A stretch of 44,927 bases of DNA from a gamma proteobacterium SCGC AAA007-O20. GTDB lineage: Bacteria; Pseudomonadota; Gammaproteobacteria; PS1; Pseudothioglobaceae. The stretch spans positions 1 through 44,927 of the forward strand of contig AFHY01000007.1 in assembly GCA_000213395.2 (NCBI GenBank). The letters are read 5' to 3'. The translations under genes and the position numbers were made by a program. The notes under the pieces are model-generated. The model saw only the letters and a program-made list of their open reading frames with translations, did no database searches and had not been told where the DNA came from. Below, one piece after another: positions 32,112 to 44,927 of this stretch (the first letter of the stretch is position 1; every line of letters begins with the position of its first letter).

Positions 32112-34478
32112 TTAGTCACCGTATGGTGTCCAAATATTTTTCACTTCTGTGGCGTTACGCAGAAATTCTAAACCTTCACCTTGTTGAGGGTCCAACCAAT
32201 CTCGATCGCCCTCCTGATGAACCCATAAACGCTTTAAGTCAGCAGCGCTAGTAGCCTCAACTTTGGCAACCGTTTCGTCGTCAGACCAACACCAAATTCC
32301 ATCTACTTCAGCGTGACCAGCTAACTGGTCAGCTAATTCACTCTTGTTGCCAGTTACTATATTTATAACTCCAGGAGGAATATCTGAGGTTTCAAGTGTT
32401 TGAACTAATTCCAAGGCGACACCAGCATAGCGCTGACTAGGAATTAAAACAACTCGGTTACCCATAGCTATAGCAGGTGCAATCAAAGATATTGTGCTTA
32501 ACAAGGGCTTTTCTTCAGGAGCGATTTGTGCCAATACTCCGATGGCTTCAGGCAAAGCCATTGTTACGCCACGATAAGGTGCATTATGAACAGCACCATC
32601 ATATTTATCGGACCATGCTGCATAGCTAAATAGTCGACTCAAGCTGGCATTAAATTCAGTTTTTGCCTCTTTTTTGGTAATTCCACACAAATCTTGTAAG
32701 CGCTTTATCCATTCAGACTCGCGCAGTGCTAAGTTTTCAGCTAGAAAATAGATAATTTGAGCTCTAACATGGCCGTTTTGGGTACTCCAAGAATTAGCTT
32801 TAATTGCTGCACTCACTGCATTTCGAATATCTTTGCGGTTACCTGAGCCAACCAAACTTGCTAAACTGCCATCAGCCTTGTAAGTGGCAATACTGTGACC
32901 ACCATCTGGCCTAACTTGTTTACCGCCAATATAGAATTTTAAGGTGCGATCAATAGTTTTATTACTACCTGGTTGTTGTTTTATGGTGACACGTTTTAAC
33001 TTTTTAGTAGGGGTTAAGGATTTTGGTTTAAGGTATTCAAAAAGTCCTTCCTTGCCACCTTCGCGACCAAATCCAGATTCTCTTACTCCACCAAAACCGC
33101 AAGAAGCATCAAATTGATTGTGGCAGTTAATCCAGATTACTCCAGCCTTAAGTTTTGGAGCCACATCCATAGCACGATTGATATTTTCACTCCACACACT
33201 TGCTGCTAAGCCGTAGCGGCTATTATTAGCCAAAGCGACAGCCTCAGTTTGAGTGCGGAAAGTCATTGATACCAATACAGGTCCAAAAATTTCTTCTTGG
33301 GCTAAAGGGTGGCTTGCATCGATCTCAGTAATAAGACTTGGCGGGTAATAATTGCCATCAGATTGGCCATCATAAGCTTGGAAAAGTTCACCACCTTGCT
33401 TGAGGCCTTGTTGAACCATTTGATCAACCCTTTGGTATTGAGTTTGGCTTACTAAGCTTCCTAAGTCAGTTGATTTATCTAGCGGTAATCCTAAGCGTAA
33501 TTTTTGAATACGTTTTTTGATTTTGGAGTGTAATTTATCTACAATTTTTGCTTGTACTAATAATCTTGATCCAGCACAACATACCTCGCCTTGATTAAAC
33601 CAGATAGAATCAACTAAGCCTTCAACAGCAGCATCTAGATCAGCATCTTCAAAAACCACGAAGGCTGACTTACCACCAAGTTCTAAAGTTAATTTTTTAC
33701 CTTGACCTGCAGTACTCTGTCTTATTGAACGCCCTACGGCTGTTGATCCAGTAAAGGCAACCTTATCAACTCCCTTATGAGAAGCCAGGGAAGCGCCTAC
33801 ATCACCAGCACCATTGACGATATTAACAACACCAGAAGGGACACCAGCTTGTTCACATAAATGAGCAAAAAACATAGCAGTGATAGGTGTTTGTTCGGCG
33901 GATTTAAATACGATCGTGTTGCCCATTGCCATAGCAGGGGCGATCTTCCATGACAACATTAATAAGGGGAAATTCCAAGGCACAATTTGTGCTGCAACTC
34001 CAATCGGTTCATAGCTAGAAAGCTCTTGTTCTTGAAGTTGTGCCCATCCAGCATGGTGATAGAAATGTCGAATAGCTAAGGGTATATCAATATCCCGACT
34101 TTCGCGAATTGGCTTACCGTTGTCTAGGGTCTCTAAGACCGCGGTTAAACGTGTATGTTTTTGTAATAAACGTGCTAATGCATAGAGTACTTTAGCCCTT
34201 TCATGACCGCTCAATGCTTGCCATTTAGGTTGAGCTTTTCGGGCAGCAGCCACAGCTGCATCTAATTGAGAAGCGTTGGCTATTTCAATATGCGCCAGTA
34301 GTTCACCATTCGAAGGATTATGACTAGCAATCAACTCTGCATTTTTACGTTTATCAAACTTACCATTGATAAATTGCCCAAATCGACGATTATGTTTTTC
34401 AAGCCATTTTTGTGCTTCAGTACTACTTTCTAGGGCTTCGCTATAATCAAGTTCTTCAAAAGATTTTAATAATGTCAT
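32112..34478 (-). CDS. Two-domain aldehyde dehydrogenase, ALDH16 type
   Basis: This 788-residue protein carries a full ALDH domain (about 30-490) and a second shortened ALDH-like domain (about 510-788). The first has the proton acceptor LELGGKS, the catalytic Cys in NQGEVCCAGSR, EEIFGPVL and a PWNFP segment. The second keeps ALDH-like blocks (IGVLAQIAPEEKPLL, VINIVTGNKSELAD) but I see no catalytic Cys or Glu. That layout is that of the ALDH16 family, in which the second domain is non-catalytic. In this cluster the likely job is oxidising acetaldehyde made by DeoC, with NAD(P)+, to acetate; this is inferred from context. It starts 10 bases after alc. Confidence 0.9.
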   Translation of the reverse strand: MTLLKSFEELDYSEALESSTEAQKWLEKHNRRFGQFINGKFDKRKNAELIASHNPSNGELLAHIEIANASQLDAAVAAARKAQPKWQALSGHERAKVLYALARLLQKHTRLTAVLETLDNGKPIRESRDIDIPLAIRHFYHHAGWAQLQEQELSSYEPIGVAAQIVPWNFPLLMLSWKIAPAMAMGNTIVFKSAEQTPITAMFFAHLCEQAGVPSGVVNIVNGAGDVGASLASHKGVDKVAFTGSTAVGRSIRQSTAGQGKKLTLELGGKSAFVVFEDADLDAAVEGLVDSIWFNQGEVCCAGSRLLVQAKIVDKLHSKIKKRIQKLRLGLPLDKSTDLGSLVSQTQYQRVDQMVQQGLKQGGELFQAYDGQSDGNYYPPSLITEIDASHPLAQEEIFGPVLVSMTFRTQTEAVALANNSRYGLAASVWSENINRAMDVAPKLKAGVIWINCHNQFDASCGFGGVRESGFGREGGKEGLFEYLKPKSLTPTKKLKRVTIKQQPGSNKTIDRTLKFYIGGKQVRPDGGHSIATYKADGSLASLVGSGNRKDIRNAVSAAIKANSWSTQNGHVRAQIIYFLAENLALRESEWIKRLQDLCGITKKEAKTEFNASLSRLFSYAAWSDKYDGAVHNAPYRGVTMALPEAIGVLAQIAPEEKPLLSTISLIAPAIAMGNRVVLIPSQRYAGVALELVQTLETSDIPPGVINIVTGNKSELADQLAGHAEVDGIWCWSDDETVAKVEATSAADLKRLWVHQEGDRDWLDPQQGEGLEFLRNATEVKNIWTPYGD

Positions 34479-34487
34479 ATGTCAATC

Positions 34488-35501
34488 CTATGTTAAAGGG
34501 TGTCGGTAAGAAGCAGAATAATAACCACTAGAAAAATGATCAAGTTGACGCTCAATATCAATTCGAATATGAGTAAACTCTTGCTCATTTAACAAGTCTT
34601 CTTTTTTAAAGATATGAATTTTATTCATTCCTAGTTTTTTTCTATCAATTATTTTAGACCATGTTTTACTATCTTCAATCAAAGTATCGACATCAGGGTT
34701 CGAAATATTAGCTGATGAAATAGAAAAAGTATCTGGAAAGTTTCCCTTAAAAAAACTTGTATCTACAATAATTTCATGAACTTTAGCTGTTTTTGATAGT
34801 GCTATTACTCCCCAGTCATTGCCTGGCTTTCGTCGACGTCTTGTTTCCCAGCCATCAGCCATACTTAATGGAGTGTACTCTTCGAGAATATTACTTAGAC
34901 AACCAAAATGCTCATCATTAGCAAACAATACTCTTGCACCACTTTCTTTAGAAATTACGTTAGTACCAGTGATTTCATATTTAGTTTCGTCAGTCCATGC
35001 TTGTCCATAAGCTCTTAAACGAGCAATTCCTCCATCTGGGTAAAGAGTTATTTTTAGATGCGTTATTGGCTGATTTGTTTTGCATGAAAAAAGGTTATGA
35101 GAGTCACTCTCAAGTTTTTCTTGATCTAGTAAGTCGAACCATTCAGAGACCGCTGATCCATCAACAACTCGATCATCAGTAGTTCCCCCTGGAACCGAAC
35201 AACCTAAAATTGAAATTGCGGGTGCAAAGTTTCCAGTAAAGTGACTTGTATCAATATTAAAGTTATTAATAATAGAGGGCGAACCAAGTCTTATAAAACA
35301 AAAATCATTTTTGCCATCACGGCGACGTCTACTTTCCCATCCATCCATCCATTTGCCATTTTCATCGTATTTGCCCTCTATCCATAGCGGTTCACTAGCC
35401 TGTAGCATACGCCCAGAATCAGCAAAAAATTCATCACTACAATAAATTACTTTACTTCCAAAATCAGAGCAAGCGACATCAATTTTGTCTTTATAGTCCA
35501 T
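34488..35501 (-). CDS. alc: Allantoicase
   Basis: Allantoicase hydrolyses allantoate to ureidoglycolate and urea. The 337-residue product is made of two homologous jelly-roll halves, seen as paired repeats: WMDGWESRRRRDGKNDF with the following DTSHFTGNFAPAIS, and MADGWETRRRRKPGNDW with DTSFFKGNFPDTFS. The length matches the family. Its start overlaps uraD by 11 bases. Codon use and GC content are low, like puuE and uraD, and unlike the ALDH and deo genes that follow. Confidence 0.95.
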   Translation of the reverse strand: MDYKDKIDVACSDFGSKVIYCSDEFFADSGRMLQASEPLWIEGKYDENGKWMDGWESRRRRDGKNDFCFIRLGSPSIINNFNIDTSHFTGNFAPAISILGCSVPGGTTDDRVVDGSAVSEWFDLLDQEKLESDSHNLFSCKTNQPITHLKITLYPDGGIARLRAYGQAWTDETKYEITGTNVISKESGARVLFANDEHFGCLSNILEEYTPLSMADGWETRRRRKPGNDWGVIALSKTAKVHEIIVDTSFFKGNFPDTFSISSANISNPDVDTLIEDSKTWSKIIDRKKLGMNKIHIFKKEDLLNEQEFTHIRIDIERQLDHFSSGYYSASYRHPLT

Positions 35502-36012
35502 AGATTTCCTTAATTCTTAACCAGGCAATTTTGTTAATTTCACTTAAAGCATTTAATCTTTCTTGAGAGACAGTATTTTTCTGTCGGATTTTAAAGCTCA
35601 ATAGTATTTCGGATTTATTTTTTTCCTTCACTGCCATAATAAAAGGGAAATTAAACTTTATAAAGTATTGATTGTTAAGTTCTTCAAAAAGCTTGATTTC
35701 ACTGTCATTACAGTCATTTAATCCTGCAGATTTTTGTTCAGTTGTCGAAAAATCCGTTAGTTCATTGTTTTGTGCTTTTTTGCCAGCTAACATTGGATGC
35801 GAGAGAATCAAATTGTCTTGTAAATCACTGTCTGCTTGTAGCATAATTTCACAAAAAAGTTGATGAAACATCTCTAAACTGTTGTATTCATTGTTTGCTA
35901 AAACTAGCTCCAAGGATTGCTCCACGATCCACGGCGAGTGTTCATATACATTTTCAAAAGTTTCTATAAAATCTTTTGAGGAGCTTTTAGCTAAATTAGT
36001 AGGTAATTTCAT
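35491..36012 (-). CDS. uraD: OHCU decarboxylase
   Basis: UraD decarboxylates 2-oxo-4-hydroxy-4-carboxy-5-ureidoimidazoline (OHCU), made from urate, to S-allantoin. The 173-residue all-helical product has the catalytic His in SHPMLAGK (H72; the family usually has HPDLAGK), the glutamate in STTEQKSAGL and the binding region FIKFNFPFIMAV. It lies between puuE and alc with 14-base spacing to the first and an 11-base overlap with the second. A uricase and a HIU hydrolase would be needed upstream in the pathway and are not seen. Confidence 0.93.
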   Translation of the reverse strand: MKLPTNLAKSSSKDFIETFENVYEHSPWIVEQSLELVLANNEYNSLEMFHQLFCEIMLQADSDLQDNLILSHPMLAGKKAQNNELTDFSTTEQKSAGLNDCNDSEIKLFEELNNQYFIKFNFPFIMAVKEKNKSEILLSFKIRQKNTVSQERLNALSEINKIAWLRIKEIYGL

Positions 36013-36026
36013 AGCTATCGTTTCTG

Positions 36027-36953
36027 TTAAAAATTTTCATACCAATGGTCGGCTATTTGTTTTCGAGTACAAAACCAGACGTCATCAAAAGTTCTAACGT
36101 ATGCCAAAAACTTTCTCATTGCCATAATTCGACCGGGTCTCCCTAAAATACGTGCATGCATACCTATGGACATCATTTTAGGGTGTGTTTCACCTTCCAA
36201 ATACAGCGCATCAAAGCTGTCCTTGAGGTAATTAAAGAACTGCTCACCTGAATTAAATCCTTGTGGAGTTGCAAACCTCATATCATTAACATCAAGGGTA
36301 TATGGAACAACCAAATGCTTTTCTTTTTCACTCTTGCCTTTAACCCAATAAGGCAAATCGTCATCATAACTGTCACTGTCATACAGAAAACCCCCCTCTT
36401 CAATTACCAGCCTTCTTGTGTTTGGACTATTTCTCCCGGTATACCAACCGAGTGGACGTTTACCTAAAAAATCTGTTAACAAAGATATACAGTTTTTGAT
36501 ATGTTCGCGTTCAGTTTTTTCATCAATAAACTGATAATCGATCCAACGAAGACCATGTGCACAAATGTCATAACCTTCATCAACCAAATAGTCTGCCAGT
36601 TCCTGGTTACGTGCAATTGCCACTGCCACTGCAAAAATAGTGATAGGGATTTCAAATTCTCGGAAAAGACGTAATACTCTCCATACTCCCACCCTTGAGC
36701 CATACTCATACAAGGACTCCATACTCATATATCTCACTCCATCATAGGGCTTGGCCCCCACTATTTCTGATAGGAATGCTTCTGAAGCTTTGTCGCCATG
36801 AAGTATGCAGTTTTCACCGCCCTCCTCATAGTTGAGAACAAACTGCAATGCAACACGGGCCTTATTCGGCCACTGAGGATGAATTGAGCCACTTCCATAA
36901 CCGGTCATATTGCGTGGGTAATGGTCAAGACTTTCGATTAATTTTTTGTTCAT
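36027..36953 (-). CDS. puuE: Allantoinase, PuuE type
   Basis: PuuE is a metal-independent allantoinase of the polysaccharide-deacetylase fold that opens allantoin to allantoate. The 308-residue product has RNMTGYGSGSIHPQWP and ALQFVLNYEEGGENCILHGD at the N-terminus, ICAHGLRWIDYQ, GWYTGRNSPNTRRLV and MSIGMHARILGRPGR, all characteristic of this group and not of the dinuclear metal allantoinases. It is the first enzyme gene after the regulator, nine bases downstream of gntR. Confidence 0.96.
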   Translation of the reverse strand: MNKKLIESLDHYPRNMTGYGSGSIHPQWPNKARVALQFVLNYEEGGENCILHGDKASEAFLSEIVGAKPYDGVRYMSMESLYEYGSRVGVWRVLRLFREFEIPITIFAVAVAIARNQELADYLVDEGYDICAHGLRWIDYQFIDEKTEREHIKNCISLLTDFLGKRPLGWYTGRNSPNTRRLVIEEGGFLYDSDSYDDDLPYWVKGKSEKEKHLVVPYTLDVNDMRFATPQGFNSGEQFFNYLKDSFDALYLEGETHPKMMSIGMHARILGRPGRIMAMRKFLAYVRTFDDVWFCTRKQIADHWYENF

Positions 36954-36961
36954 AACTATCT

Positions 36962-37645
36962 TTAATTAAATATATGGCTATAACTATTTTTTGTCTTGAC
37001 TTGAACACCAAAGTTTAGTGACTGTACGCAGTGATCTAAATGAACATTTATTGCATCACTTGCCTTTTTTAGATTGTTACTTTTAATGGCCTCAATGAGC
37101 TCTTGGTGCTCAGCAAAAGAGCAAAAATTTGATTCACGGTCAGCATATACGGAAGCAGCAAGTGCACTTAATGGAATTAATGGTTTTAAGCTTTCAACTA
37201 GATACTTGTTGTCACACAGCTCAGCCAAGGTTAAATGGAAATCGCATGACAATCTGGTGAGCTTTGCAAGTTCTTTTGAATCATGCAACTGCTTCTCTTT
37301 GGAAACCAAAGAATCAACCTCAGTCAAGTCGAGCTGCTTGTTATGATATTTTTCTACCAGAATCATAATGACACCACTCTCTATGGCTTTCCTTGCCTTA
37401 AAGATTTGTTTAGTTTCTTGTTCCGTTGGACAAGCAACACGAACGCTTTGATTCTTTTTATGTATTAAAACACCCGAATCAACTAGCCTATCAAAACCTT
37501 GCCTAATCACTGCACGACTGTATCCAAATTCTTCTTGTAAAGAAATTTCAGATAATTTAACTCCAGGGTTGAGTCTGTTCTTTAGTATGGCTTCAAAGAT
37601 AACCTCTACAACATCGTCAGAACTTGTGCTTAAAGTAGTACTCAT
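36962..37645 (-). CDS. GntR/FCD-family transcription regulator
   Basis: A 227-residue regulator of the GntR superfamily, FadR/FCD branch. The N-terminal winged helix (about 8-75) contains GVKLSEISLQEEFGYSRAVIRQ, and the C-terminal FCD domain has the metal-ligand pattern D-H-H-H seen in DFHLTLAEL, AEHQELIEAI and NVHLDHC. Such regulators bind a carboxylate or similar metabolite. Position as the first gene of the ureide/deo operon, and the perfect palindromes just upstream, indicate it controls this operon and probably the divergent nucleoside operon. Ureidoglycolate, allantoate or a related acid is a reasonable effector guess. AAGAGA precedes the ATG. Confidence 0.92.
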   Translation of the reverse strand: MSTTLSTSSDDVVEVIFEAILKNRLNPGVKLSEISLQEEFGYSRAVIRQGFDRLVDSGVLIHKKNQSVRVACPTEQETKQIFKARKAIESGVIMILVEKYHNKQLDLTEVDSLVSKEKQLHDSKELAKLTRLSCDFHLTLAELCDNKYLVESLKPLIPLSALAASVYADRESNFCSFAEHQELIEAIKSNNLKKASDAINVHLDHCVQSLNFGVQVKTKNSYSHIFN

Positions 37646-37685: not shown

Positions 37686-37714
37686 ATTGTAGACCTATAA
37701 ATTCAAATAGTCAA
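37686..37714 (-). promoter_or_regulatory. Sigma-70 promoter of the gntR-puuE-deo operon
   Basis: On the minus strand TTGACT (37709-37714) and TACAAT (37686-37691) are spaced by exactly 17 bases, a near-consensus promoter. The start is expected near 37679, giving a leader of about 34 bases before the gntR ATG. A near-match to the operator pattern overlaps the -10 (37687-37696). Confidence 0.75.
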
Positions 37715-37715
37715 T

Positions 37716-37740
37716 ATTGTTAACAATTATTGTATACAAT
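37716..37740. promoter_or_regulatory. Paired 12-bp palindromes, probable GntR/FCD operators
   Basis: ATTGTTAACAAT (37716-37727) and ATTGTATACAAT (37729-37740) are both perfect palindromes separated by one base, with centres 13 bases apart. Both contain TNGTNNACNA, the operator pattern of the GntR/FadR family. The first lies one base upstream of the -35 of the gntR operon promoter. Their centres fall near -42 and -55 from the predicted start. The assignment to the adjacent regulator is inference; the palindromes are seen directly. Confidence 0.78.
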
Positions 37741-37787
37741 ATTTTAAGTCTAATATTTATATATTTCTAATTATTTACATTATTTTT

Positions 37788-37817
37788 TTGCCAAAAAATT
37801 ATAGACAGGAATATAAT
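37788..37817 (+). promoter_or_regulatory. Sigma-70 promoter of the nucleoside uptake operon
   Basis: TTGCCA (37788-37793) and a perfect TATAAT (37812-37817) are spaced by 18 bases on the plus strand. The start is expected near 37824. A near-match to the operator pattern, ATGTTTACAA (37816-37825), overlaps the -10 and start site. Confidence 0.72.
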
Positions 37818-37823
37818 GTTTAC

Positions 37824-37968
37824 AACTCGGGTATTAGTTTAAAAATTTTAAAACCCCAAGTTAAACACAGAAGAATTTTTACCCGTCTTTCTTAATGATG
37901 GATTTCTGAAATTTTTATAACTATAAAAGTAAGATAAAAATACATAATATAAATCAAGGAGAAGAAAA
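37824..37968 (+). promoter_or_regulatory. 145-base leader of the nucleoside uptake operon
   Basis: This untranslated stretch lies between the predicted start and the BMP gene. It is AT-rich and contains CGGGTA (37828-37833) complementary to TACCCG (37880-37885), which could enclose a bulged fold. I do not recognise a purine or other riboswitch consensus. AAGGAG at 37956-37961 is the ribosome site. With the promoter and operator elements listed separately, this accounts for the 323 gene-free bases between gntR and the BMP gene. Confidence 0.35.
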
Positions 37969-39000
37969 ATGAAACAAATGAAAAGCTCACGATTAGGTGG
38001 GTTAATTAAAAAAACAAGTCTGGCTATGATTGCTGGCGCATTTGTCTTATCTGCGTCTATAGCGCAAGCTGACATTAGACCTGCTGTTGTTTATGATGCT
38101 GCAGGTAAAAATGATAAATCTTTCAATGAAGCAGTTTTTAATGGCATAACACGATTCATGAATGATACAGGTATTGCGGTCACTGAGCTTGAGCCAACAA
38201 ATGAAGCACAGATGGAACAAAGCCTTATGAAGCTTGCTCAGCGTGGCTATAGCCCTATAGTAGCTGTAGGCTTTACTTTTGCTGGCCCTCTAACAGTTGC
38301 TGCTGAAGCATATCCTGATACAAGTTTCACTCTAATTGATATGGTTGTAGGATTGGACAATGTTCAGAACGTGATATATAAAGAGCATGAAGGTTCCTTC
38401 CTGGTCGGCGTGTTGGCGGCTATGAATTCCAAAACTGGGACTGTAGGTTTTGTCGGTGGTATGGGCATTCCACTCATTAGTCGTTTTGAGTGTGGCTACA
38501 AGCAAGGTGTTAAATGGCAAGATAGTTCTATGAATATTCTAGCTCAAATGACTGGATCAACTTATTTAGCTTGGAACAACCCATCTAAGGGTGGTGAGAT
38601 TACTCGTAGTCAAGTTGAGGCTGGCGCTGATGTAGTTTATGCTGCAGCTGGTGGAACTGGAATTGGTGTTTATCAAACTGCTGCTGATTTGGGTGTACTA
38701 GCAATTGGTGTAGACTCTAACCAGAACTACATGCAACCCGGAACAATGCTAACTTCGATGTATAAGAAAGTTGGACAAGCCGCTTATGATAGTTATGAAG
38801 CTGCTATGAATGGCACTTGGGAAGGTGGCTTTAGAGTTCTAGGACTTGCCGAAGATGGTGTTGGCTGGGCTCTAGACGAGTACAACCGTGACTTGGTCAG
38901 TGCAGAGATGGAAGCACGCGTCAATGAAGCCAGAAATGCAATTATTGCTGGTGACATTGTAGTACATGATTACATGGCTGATAATACCTGCCCAATCTAA
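37969..39000 (+). CDS. BMP-family nucleoside-binding protein of an ABC transporter
   Basis: The 343-residue receptor belongs to the basic membrane protein (BMP/PnrA-like) family that binds purine and pyrimidine nucleosides. It has a Sec signal peptide (about 1-34, cleavage near AQA-D) with no lipobox cysteine, then VVYDAAGKNDKSFNEAVFNG, a family hallmark. GFVGGMGIPLISRFECGYKQG and the hinge IGVDSNQNYM follow. It is the first gene of the plus-strand operon. A stable stem-loop follows the stop codon, separating it from the ATPase and permease genes. Confidence 0.94.
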   Translation: MKQMKSSRLGGLIKKTSLAMIAGAFVLSASIAQADIRPAVVYDAAGKNDKSFNEAVFNGITRFMNDTGIAVTELEPTNEAQMEQSLMKLAQRGYSPIVAVGFTFAGPLTVAAEAYPDTSFTLIDMVVGLDNVQNVIYKEHEGSFLVGVLAAMNSKTGTVGFVGGMGIPLISRFECGYKQGVKWQDSSMNILAQMTGSTYLAWNNPSKGGEITRSQVEAGADVVYAAAGGTGIGVYQTAADLGVLAIGVDSNQNYMQPGTMLTSMYKKVGQAAYDSYEAAMNGTWEGGFRVLGLAEDGVGWALDEYNRDLVSAEMEARVNEARNAIIAGDIVVHDYMADNTCPI

Positions 39001-39020
39001 GTACTACTTTTTTATCCATT

Positions 39021-39050
39021 AATACATCCGACCTTTTGGTCGGATGTATT
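39021..39050 (+). other. Perfect 13-bp stem-loop after the BMP gene
   Basis: AATACATCCGACC (39021-39033) pairs with GGTCGGATGTATT (39038-39050) around a TTTT loop. No T tract follows, so it is probably a 3'-end stabiliser or processing signal keeping the binding-protein message more abundant than the downstream part, and not a classic terminator. Confidence 0.75.
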
Positions 39051-39098
39051 ATATGTACGACTATAAAATTTTGTTGTATTTAGTTTAGAATTACAACT

Positions 39099-40655
39099 AT
39101 GGATCAATCTAACATAGCAATCGAACTAATCGATGTTGATAAACACTTTGGTGCAGTATATGCAAATGACAAAGTCAACCTGAGCGTTAAAACAGGCACA
39201 ATACACGGCATTGTTGGTGAGAATGGTGCCGGTAAATCAACCTTGATGAGTATTTTGTATGGCTTCTATCAGGCAGACTCTGGGCGCATAAAAGTTTTTG
39301 ATAAAGACTTTATATCTACTAATTCACGCCAATCAATTGAGGCAGGTATAGGGATGGTTCATCAGCACTTTATGCTTGTCGAGAATTTTACTGTTCTAGA
39401 AAATGTCATACTTGGAAGTGAAGATGGAGCTCTAATTTCTGAAAGCCTGGACAAGGCTCGTATTGAATTGACAAGACTAGCTCAAGAGTATGGATTAGAA
39501 GTTGAATTAGATGTTGCAGTTGAAGAACTATCCGTTGGTATGCAGCAACGAGTTGAAATTTTAAAAGGCCTCTATAAGGGAGCAAAGGTCTTAATACTTG
39601 ATGAACCAACAGGCGTATTAACTCCTCAAGAGTCAGACGAATTATTTCGAATATTTGAAGCACTTAAGAAACAAGGTGTCACTATTATATTAATCACTCA
39701 TAAACTTCGTGAAATCATGAGTATCACGGATTATGTATCTGTAATGCGGGCAGGAAAAATGGTAGCGCATCGTCAAACAAGTGAAACCAATCCAGAAGAA
39801 CTTGCAGAATTAATGATTGGTCGAAAAGTTTTACTAAATATTGTTAGAACTGAAGCAAAAAGTGGAGACCCTCTCCTAGTTGCCAATAATCTTGAAATAC
39901 ATAATGAACAAGGAATTAAGCGAGTTTCAGAAGTGAGTTTTGAGGCACGCTCTGGTGAAATCCTTGGAATTGCTGGGGTCACTGGTAATGGTCAAGGCAC
40001 TCTTTTGAAAGCACTAGCAGGAATACTGCCTTTATCTAAAGGCAGTATTGAAATCTTGGGCGAAACTATTTCTCCTAAGAGACCTCTTAACCCTCAAGAG
40101 TTACGTAATCTAGGGGTAGCACATGTCCCTGAAGATCGACAAAGAATGGGGATAATTTCAGATTTTAGTGCGAGTGAATCAGCACTCTTAGGCTATCAAA
40201 ATGATAAAGAAATTAACCAGGGTGTTTGGCTCAAACGATCATTAGTTAAAGCTAACTGCGAATCAATAATGGAGGCGTTTGATGTTCGCCCTACAAATCC
40301 AGACTTAAAGTCATCCAACTTTTCAGGTGGAAATCAGCAAAAACTTATTTTAGCAAGAGAATTTGAACGTGACCCAGAAGTCTTAATTATCGGTCAACCC
40401 ACTCGTGGAATTGATATTGGTGCCATTGAGTTTATAAGGAAGCGCATCATAAAGATGAGAGATGCAGGTAAAGCGATTATTTTAATTTCAGTGGAATTAG
40501 AAGAAATCATGTCAATCAGTGACCGAATCATTGTAATGTGTGACGGTGAAATAACTGGAACTGTCGATGCTGCTAAAGCTGATGAAGCTACCCTCGGAAT
40601 GATGATGGCTAACGCTTTACCTTCTGATAAAAAAATCACAGAGGCTCAACTATGA
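39099..40655 (+). CDS. Nucleoside ABC transporter ATPase (double NBD)
   Basis: The 518-residue ATPase has two nucleotide-binding domains, as in NupB/YufO and RbsA-type proteins. The first has a normal Walker A (GENGAGKST), signature ELSVGMQQR and Walker B LILDEPTGVLTP. The second is degenerate: GVTGNGQGT lacks the P-loop lysine and the Walker B region reads IIGQPTRGID, with Gln for the catalytic Glu; its signature FSGGNQQKL is intact. This asymmetry is normal in the family. Its TGA overlaps the first permease ATG by four bases. Confidence 0.95.
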   Translation: MDQSNIAIELIDVDKHFGAVYANDKVNLSVKTGTIHGIVGENGAGKSTLMSILYGFYQADSGRIKVFDKDFISTNSRQSIEAGIGMVHQHFMLVENFTVLENVILGSEDGALISESLDKARIELTRLAQEYGLEVELDVAVEELSVGMQQRVEILKGLYKGAKVLILDEPTGVLTPQESDELFRIFEALKKQGVTIILITHKLREIMSITDYVSVMRAGKMVAHRQTSETNPEELAELMIGRKVLLNIVRTEAKSGDPLLVANNLEIHNEQGIKRVSEVSFEARSGEILGIAGVTGNGQGTLLKALAGILPLSKGSIEILGETISPKRPLNPQELRNLGVAHVPEDRQRMGIISDFSASESALLGYQNDKEINQGVWLKRSLVKANCESIMEAFDVRPTNPDLKSSNFSGGNQQKLILAREFERDPEVLIIGQPTRGIDIGAIEFIRKRIIKMRDAGKAIILISVELEEIMSISDRIIVMCDGEITGTVDAAKADEATLGMMMANALPSDKKITEAQL

Positions 40656-41752
40656 CTCGTGATAGAAGATTATCATGGATAAATGGCTTATTATTGCCAC
40701 TCTTTAATGTTTTAACTGCGTTTTTAGCTACGGGGATCGTTTTTCTATTAATAGGTGTTGATCCAATAGAGGCTACAAAAATATTAATCTATGGTGCTCT
40801 TGGATATGATGAAGGTCTTGGATACACACTTTATTACGCAACAAATTTTGTTTTTACCGGTTTGGCAGTAGCCGTTGCTTTTCATGCAGGGTTATTCAAT
40901 ATTGGAGGCGAAGGTCAGGCTTATGTTGGTGGCCTTGGTATTGCTTTAGTTGCTTTATATATCAACCCTGCTCTAAGTGCCTGGATTGTTATCCCATTAG
41001 CCATCTCTGGTGGGCTATTGTTTGGCGCTTTATGGGCAATCATTCCTGCTTATTTACAAGCCTATCGAGGAAGTCATATTGTTATCACAACGATTATGTT
41101 TAATTTTTTAGCCTCTGCCTTAATGGTTTATATGTTGGTGCATGTTCTTCGAGAAGTAGGCAATATGACCCCCGAAAGTACAAATTTTCCTGATGTTGTA
41201 TGGTTGCCTTTTGTTCATGATGTGTTTGCTGGATTTGGCTATAACATTGCAAAATCACCACTAAATTTATCCATTCTTGTAGCTTTATTTTTCTCATTCC
41301 TAGTTTGGTTTTTCCTTTGGCATACTCGTTGGGGTTTTGCTATTCGAGCTACAGGAAAAAGCAATGATGCTGCAATATATGGTGGTATTAATCCAAAAAA
41401 AATTATCATTGTAACGATGTGCATCTCCGGAGCATTAGCCGGATTAGTTGGGGTTAATGAACTTATAGGAGTTCAACACCGTCTATTTTTAAATTTTAAT
41501 TATGGTTATGGCTTTGGCGGGATTGCAGTTGCACTAATGGGCCGAAATCATCCTGTTGGAATTCTTATTGCAGCCTTTTTGTTTGGCATACTTTACCAGG
41601 GTGGTGCAGAATTGGATTTTGAATTACAGAACGTTTCAAGAGACATAGTTGTGGTTATGCAAGGTCTAGTTATCTTGTTTTGTGGTGGCTTAGAGTATTT
41701 ATATAGGCCTGTTTTAATGCGTTTTTTAGCACCTATTGAGGCATCTGAATGA
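40652..41752 (+). CDS. Nucleoside ABC transporter permease 1
   Basis: A 366-residue inner-membrane permease of the branched-chain/nucleoside type (NupP/YufP-like) with about nine membrane segments. Diagnostic blocks are HAGLFNIGGEGQAYVGGLG near residue 80 and RATGKSNDAAIYGGI in the cytoplasmic loop. It overlaps the ATPase and the second permease by four bases at each end, so the three are translationally coupled. Confidence 0.94.
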   Translation: MTRDRRLSWINGLLLPLFNVLTAFLATGIVFLLIGVDPIEATKILIYGALGYDEGLGYTLYYATNFVFTGLAVAVAFHAGLFNIGGEGQAYVGGLGIALVALYINPALSAWIVIPLAISGGLLFGALWAIIPAYLQAYRGSHIVITTIMFNFLASALMVYMLVHVLREVGNMTPESTNFPDVVWLPFVHDVFAGFGYNIAKSPLNLSILVALFFSFLVWFFLWHTRWGFAIRATGKSNDAAIYGGINPKKIIIVTMCISGALAGLVGVNELIGVQHRLFLNFNYGYGFGGIAVALMGRNHPVGILIAAFLFGILYQGGAELDFELQNVSRDIVVVMQGLVILFCGGLEYLYRPVLMRFLAPIEASE

Positions 41753-42723
41753 GTGATTTATTTTTAACTACTGTATTAACATTTGATGCTTCAGTTAGAG
41801 TCTGTATACCACTTATTTTCGCCTCTATGGCTGGCTTATTTGCTGAGCGTTCAGGAGTTGTTGATATTGGTCTTGAAGGAAAACTTCTGATGTCAGCTTT
41901 TATTGCTGCCAGTGCTGCCTCTGTTTTTGGCTCACCTTGGCTCGGATTAATTGCAGGAATGTTTGCATCTTCTGTCCTAGCAATGATTCATGGCTTTGCA
42001 TCGATAACATACAAAGGAAATCAAATTGTTAGTGGCGTTGCAATCAATATCTTGGCTTCAGGGCTTACCATGATTTTAACTTTAGCTTGGTTTAAAAGTG
42101 GCGGAATAACTCCAACCCTTCAAGGAAATGAGAGATTTCTTTCTATTACACTTCCTGGCGTTGATATTATTGATCATATTCCAATCCTAGGTGTTATCTA
42201 TAGAGAACTAATTAGTGGTCACAATATTTTAGTCTACTTAGCTTTTGCTATCGTCCCTCTTGTTTGGTGGGTTGTGTATCGAACTCGATTTGGTCTTCGA
42301 TTACGAGCCGTTGGAGAAAACCCTAAGGCTGTTGATACGGCTGGTTTATCAGTAGAAGGGCTTCGATATAAGGCTTTACTTATAGGTGGAATTCTGTGTG
42401 GAATCGGCGGTGTTTATATTGCAACCGCTTATAACGCTCAGTTCACTAAAGAAATGACTGCTGGACAAGGATTTATTGCTCTGGCAGCACTTATATTTGG
42501 AAAGTGGCATCCATATAAGGTTTTGGCTGCATGTTTCTTGTTCGCATTTTTACAGGCTTTAGCTATTAGACTTCAAGGTGTTGTCATCCCTGGAATCGGT
42601 GAAATTCCAGTTCAATTAATTGAAGCAACACCTTACATTTTAACTGTCATCTTGTTGGCTGGTTTTATTGGAAAAGCAATACCTCCAAAAGCATCCGCTC
42701 AGCCATATATTAAGGAATTATAG
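41749..42723 (+). CDS. Nucleoside ABC transporter permease 2
   Basis: The second permease (NupQ/YufQ-like, 324 residues, about eight to nine membrane segments). It has AERSGVVDIGLEGKLLMSAF near the N-terminus and RAVGENPKAVDTAGLSVEGL in the cytoplasmic loop, both family hallmarks. It follows permease 1 with an ATGA overlap and ends two bases before the cdd start, placing uptake and deamination in one transcript. Confidence 0.95.
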   Translation: MSDLFLTTVLTFDASVRVCIPLIFASMAGLFAERSGVVDIGLEGKLLMSAFIAASAASVFGSPWLGLIAGMFASSVLAMIHGFASITYKGNQIVSGVAINILASGLTMILTLAWFKSGGITPTLQGNERFLSITLPGVDIIDHIPILGVIYRELISGHNILVYLAFAIVPLVWWVVYRTRFGLRLRAVGENPKAVDTAGLSVEGLRYKALLIGGILCGIGGVYIATAYNAQFTKEMTAGQGFIALAALIFGKWHPYKVLAACFLFAFLQALAIRLQGVVIPGIGEIPVQLIEATPYILTVILLAGFIGKAIPPKASAQPYIKEL

Positions 42724-42725
42724 AT

Positions 42726-43121
42726 ATGAATGAAGAGAACTACATTGCAGCTACAAAAGAAGCCATGAGTAAAGCTTATGTGCCCTACTCTAATTATCCA
42801 GTAGGTGCATTGATTGTAACCAAAAATGGTAATACCTATAGTGGCTGTAATGTGGAAAATGCTAGCTATCCAGAAGGACACTGTGCAGAAACTACAGCCA
42901 TCGCGTCAATGGTGATGGGAGGTGAAAAGAACATCAAAATGATTTATGTTATGAGTCAAAATGATCAAGGCGGTTGCCCCTGTGGAGGCTGTCGTCAACG
43001 CATACGAGAATTTTCTGACATCGATACGCAAGTTATCTTGTGTTCCCCCAGTGGAGTACAACAGCGCTTACTTCTTGCTGACTTGTTGCCTAATTCATTT
43101 GGTCCAGAGTATTTGTTATGA
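42726..43121 (+). CDS. cdd: Cytidine deaminase
   Basis: Cdd converts (deoxy)cytidine to (deoxy)uridine, feeding the phosphorylases. The 131-residue homotetrameric type has the zinc site C53 with catalytic E55 in GHCAETTAI and C86/C89 in CPCGGCRQRI, and the substrate loop YSNYPVGAL with CNVENASYPEG. It ends in a four-base overlap with the PNP gene. Confidence 0.97.
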   Translation: MNEENYIAATKEAMSKAYVPYSNYPVGALIVTKNGNTYSGCNVENASYPEGHCAETTAIASMVMGGEKNIKMIYVMSQNDQGGCPCGGCRQRIREFSDIDTQVILCSPSGVQQRLLLADLLPNSFGPEYLL

Positions 43122-43921
43122 GTCAAGTTGAAGACTGTATTAAAGTTATTAGCAAATCTGTAAAGGGTTTTACACCTCAGGTGGGCTTAATATTAGGCTC
43201 TGGATTGGGTCAATTTTGTGAGCATGTTGAGGTTGTTGCCAGTATTGAATTTGATGAATTACCAGGCTTTCCTGTCGCCGGTGTAGGTGGTCATGAAGGT
43301 AAACTATTGTTAGGTCAAGTTAGCGGTACCGATATTGCAATTCTGCAAGGACGGGCTCATTATTATGAACAAGGCAAAGCCGATACAATGGCTGTAGCTA
43401 TTCAAACCCTTAATGCCATGGGTTGTCAATCTTTAGTCATCACTAATGCTGCCGGAAGTTTAAATTCTGAAGCCACTCCGGGAAGTGTAATGCTGATAAC
43501 TGATCATATTAATATGACTGGTGTTTCACCTTTATTTAGCGCTGAGAGTAATCAACGTTTTGTAGACATGAGTGAGGCTTATAGTCATGAATTAAATGAT
43601 GCTATGCGCTCTGCAGCTAAAGCTAATGATATTAATTTACATGAAGGCACCTATGCCTGGATGAGTGGTCCGCAATTCGAAACGCCTGCAGAAATTCGGG
43701 CTCTCGAAACTTTAGGTGCAGATGCTGTTGGCATGTCGACCGTCCCAGAGGTCATTCTCGCCCGTCATCAAGGACTATCTTTGTGTGCCATTTCAGTGAT
43801 TACTAATTATGCAGCAGGTATGAGTGAAACAGCTCTTAGTCATGAACAAACGATTTCTTTCGCAAGTCAGGCTGCAGATACTGTAGAGTGTTTACTGATT
43901 GCCTACCTTAAAGGCCAATAA
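43118..43921 (+). CDS. punA: Purine nucleoside phosphorylase, trimeric type
   Basis: The enzyme splits (deoxy)inosine and (deoxy)guanosine with phosphate into base and (deoxy)ribose-1-phosphate. The 267-residue product has the phosphate loop LGSGLGQF, GRAHYYEQGKA, TNAAGSLN, the base-contact segment AWMSGPQFETPAEIR, VGMSTVPEVILARH and the ITNYAAGM segment whose Asn favours 6-oxopurines. Adenosine would need Add first, which is encoded in the divergent operon. GC content is higher than in the transporter genes before it. Confidence 0.95.
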   Translation: MSQVEDCIKVISKSVKGFTPQVGLILGSGLGQFCEHVEVVASIEFDELPGFPVAGVGGHEGKLLLGQVSGTDIAILQGRAHYYEQGKADTMAVAIQTLNAMGCQSLVITNAAGSLNSEATPGSVMLITDHINMTGVSPLFSAESNQRFVDMSEAYSHELNDAMRSAAKANDINLHEGTYAWMSGPQFETPAEIRALETLGADAVGMSTVPEVILARHQGLSLCAISVITNYAAGMSETALSHEQTISFASQAADTVECLLIAYLKGQ

Positions 43922-43929
43922 TATTTTAA

Positions 43930-44927
43930 ATGAAGACTAACAAGCTAAATACTAAAGACTCGGTTGTTAATAAAAAATTTACTGAGGAGGACAAAAAAGT
44001 TATTTCTTATCCAGTAATGGATGTAGAAAATAGCTCTAACGATGAGTCCAATATTAAGCGAAATCTAGGTGTTGAATTTCGGAAGAATAAGATTGCCAAT
44101 ATCTCTATCAATCGAAGTGCTATAGAACGTCGATGTGCGAACTATGGTGTACGTCGCAGTATTAAAAAACAACAACAGGCGGCATGGTTACTTAAAGCTA
44201 TCACTTTGATTGATCTGACAACATTGTCCGGTGATGATACCGAAGCTCGTGTTCGACGTCTTTGCAGTAAAGCTAGACAACCCTTAAACACTAACCTAAA
44301 AAAGAGTTTAGCTGTCGAATCTCTTGAAATAAGTGTAGCTGCAGTTTGCGTTTATCACGACATGTTGGCTGCTGCAAAGAAAGCCCTAAAAGACTCAAAA
44401 GTGAAATTAGCTGCCGTATCTACTGGTTTTCCTGCAGGGCTCTCTCCCCTACCTTTAAGGATGCAAGAAATTGAATATTCAACTGCTTCTGGTGCAGATG
44501 AGATTGATATAGTGATAAGTCGCCGTCACGTTTTAGAGGGTAATTGGAAGGCGCTATACAAAGAAGTTAAAGATTTCCGTGGGAAGTGTGGTACAGCCCA
44601 TATGAAAACTATTTTAGCAACAGGCGAGCTAGGAAATCTTAGTAACATTGCTAAAGCTTCTCAGGTTTGTATGATGGCCGGAGCTGACTTCATTAAAACG
44701 TCTACTGGAAAGGAGCCTGTCAATGCGACCTTGCCAGTGAGCTTGGTGATGGCTCGCATGATTCGTAATTTTTATGAAGAGACTGGTTGCCGAATAGGTT
44801 TCAAAGCTGCAGGTGGTATCAGTGACAGCAAGACAGCGTTGGTTTATATGACCATGATTAAAGAAGAACTAGGAAGACGCTGGTTGGAGCCAGACCTATT
44901 TAGATTTGGTGCATCTAGCTTACTGGG
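43930..44927 (+). CDS. deoC: Deoxyribose-phosphate aldolase, 3' end cut by window
   Basis: DeoC cleaves deoxyribose-5-phosphate into glyceraldehyde-3-phosphate and acetaldehyde. The frame is open from ATG 43930 to the last base (332 full codons). It resembles the long, eukaryote-like DERA type: QQAAWLLKAITLIDLTTLSG, CVYHDMLAAAK, EIDIVISR, the Schiff-base lysine K256 in DFIKTSTGKE, and GFKAAGGIS with the second lysine. About 55 N-terminal residues are polar and low in conservation, longer than in typical members. The last residues should be a short C-terminal helix outside the window. It starts eight bases after PNP. Confidence 0.94.
   Translation, partial: MKTNKLNTKDSVVNKKFTEEDKKVISYPVMDVENSSNDESNIKRNLGVEFRKNKIANISINRSAIERRCANYGVRRSIKKQQQAAWLLKAITLIDLTTLSGDDTEARVRRLCSKARQPLNTNLKKSLAVESLEISVAAVCVYHDMLAAAKKALKDSKVKLAAVSTGFPAGLSPLPLRMQEIEYSTASGADEIDIVISRRHVLEGNWKALYKEVKDFRGKCGTAHMKTILATGELGNLSNIAKASQVCMMAGADFIKTSTGKEPVNATLPVSLVMARMIRNFYEETGCRIGFKAAGGISDSKTALVYMTMIKEELGRRWLEPDLFRFGASSLL

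Follow-up and report, generated by a model that had tools for sequence, protein, structure and literature searches.

Two tandem palindromes as the probable operator of a GntR/FCD regulator of purine breakdown in a marine Thioglobus-type bacterium

Two perfect palindromes were found side by side between a gene for a GntR/FCD regulator and the divergent bmp gene in the stretch of DNA analyzed here (the window, 44,927 nucleotides, one contig, C160, of a 1.03-Mb genome assembly that is 61.6% complete). Judged from its sequence and that of its relatives, the pair is most probably the operator of the adjacent regulator, which would act as an autorepressor of the purine-breakdown operon. The inner palindrome, ATTGTTAACAAT (37716–37727), lies 1 bp upstream of the predicted -35 hexamer of the regulator promoter, and the outer palindrome, ATTGTATACAAT, occupies 37729–37740; neither is assigned to a strand. 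A single base (37728) separates the two, their centres are 13 bp apart, and both are conserved in relatives. A regulator and an operator can thus be proposed for the purine/ureide pathway of the marine Thioglobus-type lineage, and the regulator probably has a second target in a purine permease.

The regulator, which is the likely binder of the pair and probably autoregulated, has 227 amino acids and is encoded on the minus strand (36962–37645). On the same strand lie puuE (allantoinase, 36027–36953, NCBIfam TIGR03212), uraD (OHCU decarboxylase, 35491–36012, Pfam PF09349 and NCBIfam TIGR03164) and alc (allantoicase, 34488–35501, TIGR02961 over residues 7–316 of 337), all with scores over the cut-off. 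The divergent nucleoside operon bmp-nupABC-cdd-pnp-deoC (37969–44925, plus strand) starts with a BMP-type lipoprotein gene at 37969 and ends in a deoC cut by the contig end; Pfam supported the names of bmp, the ABC ATPase, cdd and pnp, and the others were read from translations. Promoters throughout were read by eye. The predicted promoter of the regulator/ureide operon (37686–37714, minus strand) has a -35 TTGACT (37714–37709), a 17-bp spacer and a -10 TACAAT (37691–37686), and the predicted bmp promoter (37788–37817, plus strand) has a -35 TTGCCA (37788–37793), an 18-bp spacer and a -10 TATAAT (37812–37817).

Both palindromes are real and not chance. The preliminary description of two perfect palindromes one base apart with a 13-bp centre spacing was upheld. 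When the 323-bp intergenic region was shuffled 5,000 times with dinucleotides preserved, no shuffle contained two TTGTNNACAA sites (mean 0.011 sites), and the exact pair occurs only once in the assembly. Single ATTGTNNACAAT sites are close to the genome-wide background (3 places in the assembly vs. 2 for the reversed control). This is what would be expected of chance palindromes in AT-rich DNA, an explanation that for the pair is refuted by the shuffles and by the conservation described below, and can practically be dismissed. It does stand for two weaker sites, 37687–37696 (TTGTAGACCT) and 37816–37825 (ATGTTTACAA), with which the preliminary description had completed an operator array of four. 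Their match of "9 of 10" is really one of 5 of 6, because TNGTNNACNA has only six fixed letters. One-mismatch matches to TNGTNNACNA numbered three in the intergenic region (the third at 37835) compared to about 1.9 expected from shuffles, and exact matches over the whole window were no commoner than chance (10 vs. 11.6). Each weak site overlaps a -10 hexamer: the first sits on the predicted TACAAT of the regulator promoter, and the second overlaps the end of the predicted bmp -10. Even the two nearest relatives, G018 and G008, no longer have the site at 37816; the site at 37687 was, among the aligned relatives, kept only in these two, as part of the promoter. The four-site array was rejected on these grounds, and the array consists of two sites. 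Single palindromes, being near background, were likewise unusable as a genome-wide regulon marker.

The usual metal site of FCD domains has an Asp and three His ligands. In the regulator H137, H180 and H202 were invariant in 15 rows, and Ser133 was invariant where the Asp is expected (row L051 of alignment A1 starts four codons late). It does not, then, match the metal-site motif of VanR-type FCD proteins, and the replacement of Asp by an invariant Ser makes the ligand uncertain. The predicted structure (pLDDT 87) matched the FCD-regulator fold over the whole chain, the closest folds being VanR/AlkR (9isw, Z 22.8), 2hs5 (22.0), McbR/YncC (4p9f, 20.8), 3ihu (20.2) and TM0439 (3sxy, 18.5). These five structures share the whole-chain fold at 12–19% sequence identity and differ in the ligand site, with its three invariant His and Ser for Asp; a phmmer search against PDB found three weakly related proteins, with E values from 4e-8 to 1.9e-6. 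The N-terminal GntR winged helix (PF00392) and the C-terminal FCD domain (PF07729), both over the cut-off, place the protein in the FadR subfamily. The consensus of this subfamily is TKGT/ACMA boxes 2 or 3 bases apart (PMC4494728, excerpt), a form that TTGTNNACAA has twice in the pair.

A search of 115 genomes, including that of the window, identified 14 orthologues of the regulator (57–95% identity, E 1.3e-84 or lower); other FCD proteins in the same search were far weaker (E 6e-11 or higher). The genes puuE, uraD and alc follow the regulator in all 14 relatives, although in G007 and G010 the contig ends within alc. Counting that of the window, 13 of the 15 orthologous regulators have the exact pair upstream, and the deviations of the remaining two, one mismatch in G026 and two in G019, all fall within the inner palindrome. 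In the other genus with the regulator (G032 and G042) the array is triple at the same 13-bp period, and hpt takes the place of bmp as the divergent gene. The comparison of the intergenic region in relatives with the same operon therefore found the pair conserved, and supported the earlier view of the paired sites as one unit of fixed period.

Exact pairs occur at 15 places across the 15 genomes, all at the purine FCD regulator. One-mismatch pairs were found seven times: at the regulator of G026, at four genes for NCS2 permeases and twice inside open coding frames (G019:C4 and G026:C11), which were rejected as targets. Among 16 genomes of the same genus in which the regulator was missing there was no exact pair and a single one-mismatch pair, at NCS2 of G003. 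None of 39 other FCD regulators from 21 genomes had an exact 13-bp pair upstream, and for three of the 39 the preceding 300 bp contained exact single sites. This paralogue set comprised 40 proteins less the FCD fragment G042:C41; starts were chosen by script, and for G003:C14 the sequence scanned was 87 bp. Two other FCD regulators, L168 (G012:C67) and L172 (G026:C19), have three exact TTGTNNACAA upstream, spaced 73/22 and 70/62 bp, respectively. The proposal that the adjacent FCD regulator binds the pair has gained from these counts (13 of 15 vs. 0 of 39), and from the decay of the pair in three natural losses of the regulator (see below).

With respect to the two operons, the pair keeps its place on one side only. 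In the 12 genomes with bmp opposite, it lies 47.5–82.5 bp from the regulator start however long the spacer is, whereas its distance to bmp (134.5–342.5 bp) grows with the spacer. The slopes against spacer length were -0.08 on the regulator side and 1.08 (r = 0.98) on the bmp side; the two sum to 1 by construction, and values near 0.5 on either side would be expected of a pair that is shared and lies centrally. Of the 15 genomes, G021 (contig ends) and G032 and G042 (no bmp alongside) were left out, and the regulator start of G026, which is 9 bp too far upstream in the promoter reading and in the loss test, was corrected for the distances. By the reasoning of PMC4494728 (excerpt) a pair of constant spacing acts on the operon to which it lies close. 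From the near-fixed distance to the regulator and the spacer-scaling distance to bmp it follows that the pair belongs to the purine-breakdown operon of the regulator. The bmp promoter is a separate element 25–170 bp from the pair; nine of the 12 genomes with the regulator share the form TTGACA-N17-TAGAAT, and the window, G008 and G018 have TTGCCA-N18-TATAAT.

The preliminary description had the regulator control both directions, and it might reach bmp-nupABC by looping or through the weak site on the bmp -10. The divergent neighbor is indeed bmp in 12 of the 14 genomes readable on both sides, both operons serve purine/nucleoside use, and central double sites of constant spacing in FadR divergons (29 of 100) are taken as joint control in the portion of PMC4494728 that treats them. 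The pair described here is not central and does not scale on both sides, its distance to bmp follows the spacer, relatives have not conserved the weak site on the bmp -10, hpt replaces bmp in G032 and G042, and the bmp promoter is intact after loss of regulator and pair. Such a shared switch is therefore unlikely, and control of the nucleoside operon by the pair is unsupported. The operon that the pair would serve continues in G018, G028 and G042 after puuE-uraD-alc with allA, puuD, guaD, uraH and xdh (names read from translations only), so that the pair probably serves the entire pathway that leads from guanine and xanthine to ureidoglycolate.

Natural losses of the regulator were found in five genomes (G002, G009, G024, G006, and G017), in which bmp and puuE adjoin with no regulator between them, and a homologue search found no close regulator copy elsewhere in these assemblies. 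In the puuE tree the losses fall at three separate places (starred branches); presence labels were set by hand from the homologue and pair searches. In G002 and G009 15 codons probably survive from the start of the regulator gene. G016 was left out, as its puuE is partial on one contig and its bmp lies at the end of another. The best match to the pair anywhere in the spacer was taken for the regulator-less genomes, and mismatches are thus lower bounds: of 16 fixed positions 3, 3, 5, 4, and at least 4 were changed in G002, G009, G024, G006, and G017, respectively, the last in a match that overlaps the bmp -35. In total at least 19 of 80 fixed positions of the pair changed after loss, compared to 3 of 192 in the 12 genomes that kept the regulator. 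The bmp promoter differed from its main consensus at 0 of 60 positions after loss and at 6 of 144 in the regulator-bearing set, all of these in the window, G008 and G018. Fisher tests gave 1e-8 and 9e-6 and ignore relatedness, while a sign test on the three independent losses gave p = 0.25, three pairs being too few to reach significance alone. G002 and G009 still have an intact outer palindrome. The three losses, in which puuE was kept, provide material for comparison; the decay of the pair in them makes the link between regulator and operator unusually easy to test, and the five genomes with puuE and bmp but no regulator invite the question whether the pathway became constitutive.

We infer that two regulator dimers, or three on the triple arrays, would bind side by side and cooperatively at sites 13 bp apart, where they would adjoin or cover the -35 of the regulator's own promoter. 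The operon repressed in this manner would be the regulator followed by puuE-uraD-alc-allA-puuD-guaD-uraH-xdh, as in the three relatives. Release would be brought about by a purine-breakdown intermediate, most likely a carboxylate such as allantoate or ureidoglycolate in the FCD pocket, and the NCS2 permease would be co-induced in several relatives that have a one-mismatch pair before the gene. That the regulator represses is suggested by the promoters of G007, G010, G011, G022 and G025, where a TATAAT follows only 9–10 bp past the pair; the pair would therefore cover the -35, which points to an autorepressor, as does its position directly against the -35 hexamer in the group of the window. The regulator could also activate, by recruiting RNA polymerase to its own operon from a position upstream of the -35. 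In the window, G008, G018, G012, G028, and G026 the pair ends 1–2 bp upstream of a -35-like TTGAC, a class-II-like place, and the TTGAC directly after the pair is kept in the latter five. The center of the inner site in the window lies about 42 bp upstream of the transcription start, if this is set 7 bp beyond the predicted -10, and an activator could equally bind at such a position. Activation is nevertheless rather unlikely, as the pair would cover the -35 in the five genomes named above, stands directly before the coding start at NCS2 of four genomes, and as puuE at least persists in genomes that lost the regulator.

A purine permease is the probable second target of the regulator. The protein scored over the cut-off for NCBIfam ncs2 and just under that for the xanthine permease pbuX. 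Four of the six regulator-bearing genomes with a readable NCS2 promoter (G025, G022, G010, and G011) have a one-mismatch pair there; of the other two, G018 has one exact site only and G032 no pair. The pair starts 44–47 bp before the aligned protein start in G025, G003, G011, and G004. This is too near the coding start for a promoter downstream, and the pair must therefore overlap or follow the promoter, which fits a repressor. A coupling of purine import to breakdown gained no support at bmp and the nucleoside operon, where it was first proposed, and reappears at the NCS2 permease. NCS2 of G002 has 18 bp of upstream sequence, that of G011 is split over two frames, and fragments or distant matches in G008, G084, G087, and G088 and a second match in G015 were not used.

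The main result against the simplest reading is the presence of NCS2 pairs where no regulator was found. The best NCS2 pairs of nine regulator-less genomes had 1 (G003), 2 (G004), 2 (G023), 3, 3, 4, 5, 5, and 6 mismatches. Neither regulator nor puuE was found in the assemblies of G003, G004, and G023 (91, 89, and 70% complete), an absence that is indistinguishable from assembly gaps, and the pair may be a relic there, or the site of another protein, or belong to a regulator whose cluster the assembly lacks. A different protein that reads the same palindrome, such as an FCD paralogue, could be the main binder at some or all pairs, above all those at NCS2. The persistence of pairs in these three genomes would agree with this, as would the paralogues of G012 and G026 with their three exact sites at other spacings. 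We consider it quite unlikely, since pairs at the regulator gene track the presence of the regulator and since no paralogue of the 39 has the exact pair.

Homologues of the regulator were found in 56 of 369 genomes drawn class-wide. Sixteen of the 20 best-homologue loci (in 16 genomes; 20 of the top 21 matches, G433:C1:3639001 left out) have at least two purine genes. An exact TTGTNNACAA lies upstream in 8 of the 20 and is absent in 12, compared to 0.13 on average and never more than 2 in shuffles; the eight include two same-genus pairs (G227/G337 and G334/G429). At none of these eight was there a second site 13 bp away with fewer than 3 mismatches. The palindrome is therefore probably the old operator of the regulator group, and tandem sites were observed in no family but that of the window. 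A tentative extension would be that the geometry of the array serves as an address: several FCD regulators of this family would share ATTGTNNACAAT, and specificity would come from the 13-bp period, the number of sites and the dimer-dimer contacts, not from the half-site.

HpxS is a regulator of purine use. The system described here resembles HpxS-type GntR/FadR regulators in having an FCD regulator in a purine-catabolism cluster (puuE-uraD-alc in the window and in 14 of 14 relatives, with purine clusters also class-wide) and a GT-N2-AC palindrome. It was likened to them by cluster and palindrome, and differs in its two or three tandem sites with a 13-bp period. The 2-base spacing of GT and AC is listed for GntR, HpxS, HypR, MdcY, PrpR, and UxuR (PMC4494728, excerpt). 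The proposed binding of neighboring dimers to a short tandem operator has a likeness in NanR of E. coli, a FadR-type repressor whose dimers, three in the full case, bind cooperatively side by side on (GGTATA)3 (PMC8012715, excerpt). NanR differs in that its GGTATA repeats are direct and that a 32-residue N-terminal extension is needed for cooperativity (PMC8012715, excerpt), whereas each site here is a full palindrome and the first helix of the regulator is predicted from residue 8. The kind of switch is therefore ordinary, HpxS-like palindromes and NanR-like multi-dimer tandem operators being already known, and its own trait, as far as the sequences tell, is the 13-bp double or triple array. 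No paper on the regulator described here was among the matches listed in the CC-licensed PMC literature. By their titles none of those listed for the letters of the site concerned a bacterial regulator, and the matches listed for Thioglobus with purines or nucleosides did not name Thioglobus; there were none for Thioglobus with uric acid or for GntR with allantoin, urate and operator. A 2025 paper on purine cross-feeding in the ocean (PMC11698098) contains neither "regulator" nor "Thioglob" in its main text.

The distal part of the operon in the window has an unusual structure. Alc is joined to aldh at 34560/34561, and in relatives readable there aldh follows deoC, not alc. Positions 34442–34560 directly continue the last base of the window (44927) in L043 (19873 after 19872); the junction is therefore an inversion or an assembly misjoin. 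The breakpoint lies near 34560, and the last approximately 23 alc codons come from the deoC-aldh spacer. Identity to the nearest relative, G018, was also found to be patchy. It is 93–96% for puuE, uraD, and the regulator and only 69–80% for alc (34488–35501) and nupABC (39099–42723), for which more distant species are closer (up to 84% for alc and 90–93% for nupABC). Either recombination or a mixed assembly could account for this pattern.
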